Part shown: in pieces, positions 36,867 to 37,784 of the stretch | How the letters are laid out: every line of letters starts with the position of its first letter | How positions within the stretch are numbered: the first letter of the stretch is position 1 | Assembly (NCBI GenBank): GCA_902363575.1 | Contig: CABJAJ010000002.1 | Span: 186,001-250,000, forward strand | Origin: Rikenellaceae bacterium | GTDB lineage: Bacteria; Bacteroidota; Bacteroidia; Bacteroidales; Rikenellaceae | Length of the DNA stretch: 64,000 nucleotides | Direction of reading: 5' to 3' | Program-made: the position numbers and the translations under genes | The notes under the pieces: generated by a model | What the model saw: the letters and a program-made list of their open reading frames with translations, nothing else | Told to the model about the DNA's origin: nothing | The model's database searches: none

Positions 36867-37267
36867 GGGGCTGACCGGTTTTGACAGCAGGCAGAGTTCG
36901 ATCGTAAGCACGCCGAGCGTTGTGTGGTGGCTCGTAAATCCCAACATGCGAATTACAAATGGCAATAACAGCTATGCACTCGCTGCCTAATTTTCCAAGA
37001 AAATTAGCTTAATCGCCGGGCCCAAGGAGGTTTGGCGACGAGTATCCCGGACGGCGGTTCCGCTCTTTAACCGCTTTCCATACGGGGTATCATTCATTTA
37101 GAGATAGCGCGAGGGAGCGTTCCGGCCGCTGCGCGAAAATCAAGGAACTGGGCCATGCGTTAGGCAGCCGCCTGCCGGGCGCGTGGAGAAGGATTAAACG
37201 GCGGCTAAGCGTGTAGAAAGCTTTTGGGTTCCCTGTTTGGACGCGGGTTCGACTCCCGCCAGCTCCA
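36867..37267 (+). ncRNA. ssrA: tmRNA (transfer-messenger RNA)
   Basis: Rescues stalled ribosomes and tags incomplete proteins. The 5' end GGGGCTGACCGGTTTTGACA and the 3' end (T arm GCGGGTTCGACTCCCGC, acceptor CAGCTCC plus discriminator A) form the tRNA-like domain; the acceptor pairs GGGGCTG with CAGCTCC. The tag frame reads GGC AAT AAC AGC TAT GCA CTC GCT GCC TAA (36961-36990), giving GNNSYALAA, close to tags of other Bacteroidales. CCA is not encoded (ACGA follows), matching the tRNA in this window. An intrinsic terminator follows at once, then tandem copies of this 3' end. Confidence 0.95.
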
Positions 37268-37784
37268 CGACAGCAACGGCGTCCGGGATGATCCGGGCGT
37301 TGTTTTTTTGTTACCTCCCTCGTGAAACCCCGGTCCGCCTTTGGCGACACCGGCACTCGGTCGGTGAGCTCGGCGGCTCAGGCCGCCTCGGTTCGACTCC
37401 CGCCAGCTCCACGACAGCAACGGCGTCCGGACGATCCGGGCGCTGTTATTTGTTACCTCCCTCGTGAAACCCCGGTCCGCCTTTGGCGACACAGGCACTC
37501 GGGCGGTGAGCTCGGCGGCTCATGCCGCCTCGGTTCGACTCCCGCCAGCTCCACGACAGCAGCAGCGTCCGGGACGATCCGGGCGCTGTTATTTGTTACC
37601 TCCCTCGTGAAACCCCGGTTCGCCTTTGGCGACACCGGCACTCGGTCGGTGAGCTCGGCGGCTCATGCCGCCTCGGTTCGACTCCCGCCAGCTCCACGAC
37701 AGCAACGGCGTCCGGGATGATCCGGGCGTTGTTTTTTTGTTACCTTCCTCGTGAAACCCCGGTCCGCCTTTGGCGACACCGGCA
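37246..37784 (+). repeat. Tandem array of ssrA 3'-end/terminator units (~143 bp, ~3.7 copies)
   Basis: The 25-bp end of ssrA (T loop, acceptor strand, discriminator) recurs starting at 37246 (native), 37390, 37532 and 37675, so the periods are 144, 142 and 143 bp. Each unit holds this end, the terminator hairpin, a second hairpin (CGCC TTT GGCG flanked by CCGG), a D-arm-like CTCGGTCGGTGAG and a GGCGGC/GCCGCC hairpin. The last unit stops at ~37784. The copies differ by a few bases. In copies 2-4 the 5' half of the T stem is changed (CCTCGG), so they are not functional tRNA-like domains. Open frames across this array are not considered coding. Confidence 0.9.
37275..37309 (+). terminator. Intrinsic terminator of ssrA
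   Basis: A 12-bp stem (37275-37286 with 37293-37304, three G-U pairs) with a GATGAT loop runs into seven T residues. The same hairpin recurs in each downstream repeat, with partly compensating changes in the third one. Confidence 0.85.

Follow-up and report, generated by a model that had tools for sequence, protein, structure and literature searches.

The window, by which we mean the whole stretch of 64,000 nucleotides analysed here, comes from an Alistipes-like genome of the Rikenellaceae (its gyrB is at most 91% identical to those of the relatives compared) and carries an intact tmRNA gene, ssrA, whose 3′ end is at the same time the head of a tandem array. Rfam model RF00023 places the gene at 36867-37270 with 152.3 bits, nearly as ARAGORN does, and Tandem Repeats Finder describes the array with a period of 143, 3.8 copies, 94% matches and a score of 966. 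The T-arm/acceptor motif starts at 37246, 37390, 37532 and 37675, with spacings of 144, 142 and 143, and in each repeat the homology to the gene starts at GGTTCGAC within the T-loop. The features are as follows:

36867..37268, + strand: ssrA (tmRNA gene), intact, by ARAGORN; unit 1 starts with its last 25 nt
37246..37784, + strand: tandem array of 3.8 units of 143 bp, by Tandem Repeats Finder
37275..37304, + strand: terminator-like hairpin of unit 1, 13 pairs, by terminator-hairpin search
37308..37369, + strand: hairpin X of unit 1, model R1, 81.9 bits (among the ten units from which R1 was built)
37372..37387, + strand: small hairpin GGCGGC-TCAG-GCCGCC of unit 1, from the sequence, folded as DNA
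37390..37414, + strand: ssrA 3′ end, copy 2, motif match
37419..37447, + strand: terminator-like hairpin of unit 2, 13 pairs
37450..37511, + strand: hairpin X of unit 2, model R1, 74.7 bits (also used to build R1)
37532..37556, + strand: ssrA 3′ end, copy 3, motif match
37561..37590, + strand: terminator-like hairpin of unit 3, 13 pairs, both stem sides changed
37593..37654, + strand: hairpin X of unit 3, model R1, 78.1 bits (outside the set that built R1)
37675..37699, + strand: ssrA 3′ end, copy 4, motif match
37704..37733, + strand: terminator-like hairpin of unit 4, 13 pairs
37737..37784, + strand: truncated hairpin X of unit 4; the R1 match extends to 37798, the repeat stops at 37784

The first-pass annotation, made from the letters of the window, had reported that the last 25 nt of ssrA recur at three downstream positions and that the homology begins inside the T arm, and both observations hold, giving four copies of the 3′ end with the native one. 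Its terminator hairpin after each copy was also found, but what it had called a second hairpin and a D-arm-like element are the two strands of a single, longer hairpin (about 60 nt), here named hairpin X; an identity with a D-arm is not supported. Between 36700 and 38300 there are five terminator-like sites, against a mean of 2.4 in shuffles. The terminator stems of units 2 and 3 carry CGCTGTT on the 3′ side, with the T run interrupted, and that of unit 3 has in addition AGCAGCG instead of AACGGCG on the 5′ side; with both stem sides altered, the earlier description of this stem as partly compensating is a fair one. In the first three units the large hairpin is followed by the small GGCGGC/GCCGCC hairpin, and directly past the cut-off fourth large hairpin, from about 37784 on, the DNA is AT-rich by eye, as had been noted. 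The identity of 99% between units 1 and 4 (over 110 nt) and of 97% between units 2 and 3 (over 143 nt) indicates that the array has grown by block copying or been evened out.

A scan of the window with Rfam 15 placed only the tmRNA and one tRNA above the gathering score; matches to RcsR1 were weak (17.4 and 17.3 bits against a cut-off of 60). The array had no match in the phage and plasmid collections, and its junction, searched as an exact pattern of 25 bases, had none in the genome contig collection. For the ssrA of the window (36867-37268) ARAGORN calls the tag AMHSLPNFPRKLA; since the gene also holds GNNSYALAA, the reading seen in relatives, that call is probably out of frame.

Hairpin X and the T-loops of tRNA and tmRNA genes

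Hairpin X is a family. A covariance model (R1) trained on ten units, of which two belong to the window, has matches in at least 34 of the 180 genomes that represent the relatives' genus (to which Alistipes montrealensis belongs); copy numbers per genome are lower bounds, and genomes with no match may hold diverged copies. Over 118 matches (95 distinct) 95.4% of cells are paired, and two-sided pair changes number 247, where shuffles give 63.5 and slid controls 13-36, in alignments (A3 and A4) that were fitted to R1 and therefore favor its structure. The pairs change directly among G-C, C-G and A-T. One T-G pair is kept in 91 of the 93 sequences with letters there, and apart from it only 7 G-U and 39 A-C cells occur among 1682, whereas the acceptor stems of 30 tRNAs from the same loci hold 17 G-U and 0 A-C in 210 cells. 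This near absence of G-U intermediates, unlike the situation in acceptor stems, suggests that the fold of X is kept in DNA rather than in RNA, a suggestion weakened by DNA folding of the individual window hairpins, whose stability does not exceed that of shuffles (z from -0.14 to -1.42). Within one genome, X can be up to 94% identical behind tRNA-Asp and tRNA-Val.

With the four hairpins of the window excluded, a tRNA or tmRNA gene precedes 101 of 114 X matches on the same strand, 44-639 nt upstream. The loci behind this count number 90, of which 30 were best-match loci and 60 were regions from 12 mostly match-rich genomes, and some places are represented twice. Twelve of the remaining 13 matches are no more than 309 nt away from the end of a contig, and the last one, at locus L211, follows a lone tRNA-Glu 3′ end and, by eye, the apparent start of an integrase gene. 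The hosts are tRNAs for Val, His, Lys, Gln, Met, Asp, Cys, Ser, Pro, Arg, Gly, Leu and Glu as well as tmRNA, altogether 17 types of gene by anticodon. In sister genera X is dispersed: of 34 matches in 20 loci, a tRNA stands within 100 nt at one locus only (L292), with X upstream of it. Since the sister genera carry X away from tRNAs, the link with tRNA genes characterizes the relatives' genus and not the hairpin itself. Many of the dispersed copies are found in genomes G193, G258, G260 and G212 (L275-L291), where counts per genome are again lower bounds.

Leaving out the 13 matches with no gene in view and 11 identical ones gives 90 distinct units, and in 70 of these X is flanked by T-stem-TT on the left and TT-CRA on the right, i.e., the hairpin interrupts a T-loop. 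Thirteen others have a hairpin-hairpin junction at the same TT (7 on the right only, 4 on the left only, 2 on both sides), six have another right side and one an odd left side; TT alone is common to all half-sites. When units of different gene types are compared, identity on the left side stays at 0.23-0.44 as far as GG-TT, where it rises sharply. Compared with its own tRNA, the right copy starts with ten positions at 0.91-1.00, one of them excepted (0.83), continues at 0.60-0.76 through the acceptor and falls at the gene end, in a profile whose first bases are fixed by selection, its 70 units having been picked for TT-CRA. The five bases left of TT agree with the cognate T-stem at 3.64 of 5 positions, against a mean of 2.95 and a maximum of 3.20 in 1000 permutations, and 239 of the 350 cells that they form with the right T-stem are paired, where shuffles give 192.8 +- 6.2. 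Because the left bases match the cognate T-stem and the right flank matches the cognate 3′ half, sequence comparison places X in the T-loop of an additional, incomplete T-arm of the cognate tRNA. The cognate sense copy on the right has a shuffle p of at most 0.01 in 71 of 90 units and outscores all other gene types in 48 of 90, a ranking in which the tmRNA units could at most tie, as their labels differed. On the left, an antisense copy of the tRNA 3′ end reaches the same p value in 38 of 90 units and is best over the other types in 38 of 90.

Loci of relatives and possible exchange of modules

Among the best 80 of 572 relatives' loci around gyrB, ssrA was visible in 40, and in eight of these 40 a further ssrA 3′ end lies within 3 kb, making two or three copies in all. 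The number of copies is thus not fixed among the relatives, a fixed number being what the first-pass annotation had said would argue against attachment sites. Hairpin X is common to seven of the eight multi-copy loci; the eighth (L038) has an unrelated unit of 257 bp, three times, with the break point also in the T-loop. One array (L054) comes from an isolate, Alistipes montrealensis kh20, which argues against an artefact of metagenome assembly. By a stricter test, a direct copy of the 3′ end within 700 nt, 7 of 37 relatives' ssrA loci were positive and 0 of 28 in other Bacteroidales, the latter being the testable ones of the 30 best-scoring loci in a search with 103 of 119 genomes above the cut-off. 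In the loci selected by gyrB, independently of the hairpin, 6 of 40 tRNA genes also have a direct 3′-half copy within 700 nt (L046, L048, L052, L072, L101 and L112), with several different inserts, L101 bearing X.

The DNA behind the genes appears in different combinations. For 45 units with 3′ halves at least 80% alike (repeats removed, similarity cut-offs chosen by us), we compared the 45 nt that follow the intact gene with the 45 nt that follow the displaced 3′ half: the two stretches resemble each other in 20 units, do so in part in 5 and are unlike in 20. By eye, 13 of the 20 unlike units have another terminator-like hairpin and seven have no terminator visible behind the displaced half. 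The tmRNA units of this set have the same terminator in four of six cases, and so has the window. A backup terminator, one of the readings offered by the first-pass annotation, is not supported as the cause of the repeats, because the sequence behind the 3′ halves differs in those 20 units and it is the hairpin, not the terminator, that is conserved between species and tRNA types. The tRNA-His genes of genomes G031 and G032 are 98% identical through the gene and have their downstream modules in swapped order, G031 carrying terminator B with element Y and then X, and G032 carrying X with terminator A and then B and Y; the swapped blocks are 98% (X) and 94% (B-Y) identical, although duplication and deletion of modules could also yield this order. 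At the tRNA-Gly of G058, G106 and G170 the stretch behind the intact gene is unlike that behind the displaced half, and species lacking X at that tRNA-Gly have other, unrelated inserts or a plain terminator. The nearest relative of 88 units stands behind the same gene type in another genome in 39 cases and differs in both respects in 42; since only seven have it behind another gene type in the same genome, spread between genes is not a frequent event. The final units of arrays are truncated at differing points.

X has company at these genes. A second module family, Y (GATGGGCGTAACGGAGC ... GTAGCCAATCC), likewise interrupts a cognate T-arm copy, at L180, L188, L205, L231 and L212, behind tRNA-His, Glu, Val and Arg. 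At the tRNA-Gly of G051, G031 and G070 (L306, L311 and L312) there are two to three copies of the 3′ half, with a third, unrelated insert between antisense and sense T-arm, and at the tRNA-Gly of G074 (L305) an antisense 3′-half copy lies past the terminator with no sense copy.

Enzymes and carriers that might move the modules were sought with a profile from 30 related tyrosine recombinases of one lineage, applied to ORFs of at least 120 aa. It found nothing in the window and nothing beside the ssrA hairpin arrays, and among the ssrA loci it recognized only L047, in G025 and without a hairpin array, and L081, about 11 kb from ssrA. In G025 (L047, L331, L332) an incomplete integrase ORF begins 253 bp behind ssrA, and another contig carries a lone ssrA 3′ end with its own hairpin (the 23-mer with 1 mismatch), homologous from GGTTCGAC; this looks like an apparent integrative element at ssrA. 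The sole X array with a neighboring recombinase gene in the profile search is that at the tRNA-Leu of G002, and this gene was dropped as a candidate for the missing enzyme, as an 83% relative sits at the same tRNA in G008, which lacks X there. RAYT transposases were set aside as movers too, the IS200-type Y1 transposase family PF01797 being present in 5 of 268 genomes of the family and in 2 (G207 and G254) of the 48 with X. Seven viral contigs matched the left-arm pattern of X, none having the hairpin by eye or a nearby tRNA. The 23-mer of ssrA occurs in 34 viral contigs (L001-L034), inside ARAGORN tmRNA or tRNA genes in 22 and preceded by GACGCG in 10 of the other 12, and these viral 23-mers probably belong to phage-borne tmRNAs.

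Origin of the arrays and comparison with known systems

We regard recombination at the T-loop, acting on hairpin modules joined there, as the most likely explanation (probability about 0.5), the window array being one site of a Rikenellaceae family of such modules. The family consists of short non-coding modules, anchored in the relatives' genus at tRNA and tmRNA T-loops. Each module begins in the T-loop and comprises the gene's 3′ half, a terminator and a variable stretch, often with an antisense tRNA 3′ end; it closes with the 5′ strand of a T-stem and TT, hairpin X, the small second hairpin and TT-CRA, at which the next 3′ half starts. With its 3′ half and terminator coming from the first module, the gene in front would remain whole, and older 3′ halves would come to lie farther downstream. 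The comparisons demonstrate the family and its fold, the junctions in the T-loop, the cognate 3′ halves, the differing terminators and, at a single orthologous locus, the swapped order; from these we infer that recombination at the T-loop exchanges modules, most likely by way of a site-specific recombinase; this putative enzyme would read the T-arm, perhaps also the extruded hairpin, and might be the cell's own or be lent by integrative elements that use the same site. In the window, whose four terminators are near-identical, the array would have come from a single module repeated on the spot, its final hairpin being cut short; local duplication is the simplest last step for it, whether recombination or template switching is assumed. 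In favor of recombination are the covariation of X, its position behind same-strand tRNA and tmRNA genes, the T-loop junctions with their sharp TT boundaries and cognate flanks, the 20 units of 45 with unlike downstream stretches, the swapped order at tRNA-His, the near-equal X behind tRNA-Asp and tRNA-Val, the apparent element at the ssrA of G025 and the direct ssrA copies in 7 of 37 relatives' loci against 0 of 28 elsewhere in the Bacteroidales. Weighing against it are the single recombinase neighbor seen with the profile, the 20 units of 45 that keep one terminator (4 of 6 tmRNA units and the window likewise), the mere 7 of 88 units related most closely to one behind another gene type of their own genome, the reduction of the common half-site to TT, the dispersal of X in sister genera, the possibly few events behind the X-X junctions, the unremarkable DNA stability of the window hairpins and the varying truncation of last units.

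A substantial but lesser likelihood goes to an origin with no dedicated recombinase, by replication slippage, template switching and homologous recombination. The palindromes of T-arm and hairpin would stall replication, the unit end CTCGGTTCG, which has microhomology with the T-loop GGTTCGA, would misalign so that 3′ half and terminator are copied again, and fold-back synthesis would yield the antisense copies. The same terminator in 20 of 45 units and in all four units of the window would follow readily from such recopying, as would the antisense 3′ ends left of X in 38 of 90 units and the varying truncation points of the last units, and the GGTTCG microhomology is present both in the window and in the dispersed copies of sister genera; arrays of unrelated sequence, such as the 257-bp units of L038 and those at tRNA-Gly, also fit. 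It accounts poorly, however, for the 20 units of 45 whose two 3′ halves are followed by unlike sequence, 13 of them by eye with another terminator-like hairpin, for near-equal X behind different tRNAs, each with its own T-stem, and for TT hairpin-hairpin junctions behind several tRNA types, although these X-X junctions may stem from few events; the swapped modules at tRNA-His speak against it as well, with the reservation already made.

Rather doubtful is a bolder form of the recombination reading, in which the tRNA and tmRNA genes of Alistipes are landing platforms of a gene-less cassette system whose recombinase reads the extruded hairpin and the T-loop and trades modules at TT. The tRNA gene would then be the constant part, with 3′ half, terminator and downstream DNA swapped repeatedly, as in an integron but anchored at a tRNA.

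Scars of ordinary integrative elements, i.e., stacked attL/attR sites with the hairpin in an attachment arm and the cargo lost, are improbable, even if part of this idea, first raised by the first-pass annotation, stands. The T-loop junction GGTTCRA is common to the window array and the tRNA arrays of relatives, the apparent G025 element at ssrA has the same homology start, and at L211 the tRNA-Glu 3′ end and apparent integrase start lie, by eye, between the array surroundings and any intact tRNA. Each integrase is normally confined to few sites, however, and here one hairpin family with strong pair conservation extends over 17 gene types; what is stacked is this conserved family, and in the one-lineage profile search no integrase adjoins any ssrA hairpin array, nor any other array except that at the tRNA-Leu of G002. 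Least probable is that the repeats form a functional RNA or a processing element, be it a back-up of the terminator, a tRNA-like decoy or a regulator: while the structured fold that had been proposed is conserved, with its T-G pair, and 101 of 114 matches lie on the strand of the front gene, a terminator-like hairpin precedes each X in the window, the scarce G-U and more frequent A-C cells, opposite to those of acceptor stems, suggest DNA, 146 of 180 genomes of the genus have no X match (diverged copies being possible), X stands away from tRNAs in sister genera, and the Rfam matches were nowhere near the cut-off.

Three known systems invite comparison. REP sequences and BIMEs are short palindromic repeats mobilized by RAYT transposases (PMC3733652), and X resembles them in being a short non-coding imperfect palindrome, a hairpin at the DNA level with one kept mismatch-like pair, and in occurring in tandem and dispersed copies with no gene of its own. 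Unlike them, X in the relatives' genus is tied to tRNA and tmRNA T-loops with a cognate 3′ half, 46 of the 48 genomes with X have no RAYT-type transposase, and by eye, alignment A3 included, X has no constant GTAG or CGTC foot. We rejected a REP-like reading for the relatives' genus, where X stands at tRNA genes, although it fits the sister genera. The attachment sites of tyrosine integrases in tRNA and tmRNA genes share the T-loop junction, the imported 3′ half that restores the gene and the old 3′ end displaced downstream, but the modules described here are about 85-280 bp long and carry no genes, a single hairpin family serves all 17 gene types, and the one adjoining integrase gene, at the tRNA-Leu of G002 in the one-lineage profile, is shared with a genome lacking X.

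Integrons hold arrays of cassettes with folded attC sites of core GTTRRRY. The X arrays are like them in their head-to-tail modules, each with a folded DNA site, in a new module that apparently comes to lie next to the fixed gene and in a module order that differs between relatives at one tRNA-His locus, where duplication and deletion could also account for it; they are unlike them in having no coding cassettes, in a fixed end that is a tRNA gene and in junctions, GGTTACC and GGTTCRA, that differ from the attC core. Each likened system thus fails a defining feature as far as tested, and the X modules would be short non-autonomous palindromic elements, apparently undescribed. No description of such arrays was found in the literature searched, which reached few subscription journals, and the available part of a survey of structured RNAs of the human microbiome describes other motifs, with X possibly among its unnamed supplementary entries (PMC8040213).

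X occupies copies of the T-loop downstream of 17 kinds of tRNA and tmRNA genes, in most cases together with the cognate 3′ half, and this implies that the ends of these genes turn over with no large elements involved, at a place, the T-loop of tRNA genes, that is a classical landing site for mobile DNA. If a recombinase drives this turnover, it would be a new recombination system and a possible tool for altering the DNA behind tRNA genes harmlessly; if no enzyme is involved, the arrays would preserve, in nature, the traces of template switching at tRNA palindromes. In both cases, the frequent choice of the T-arm by integrases becomes a testable question.
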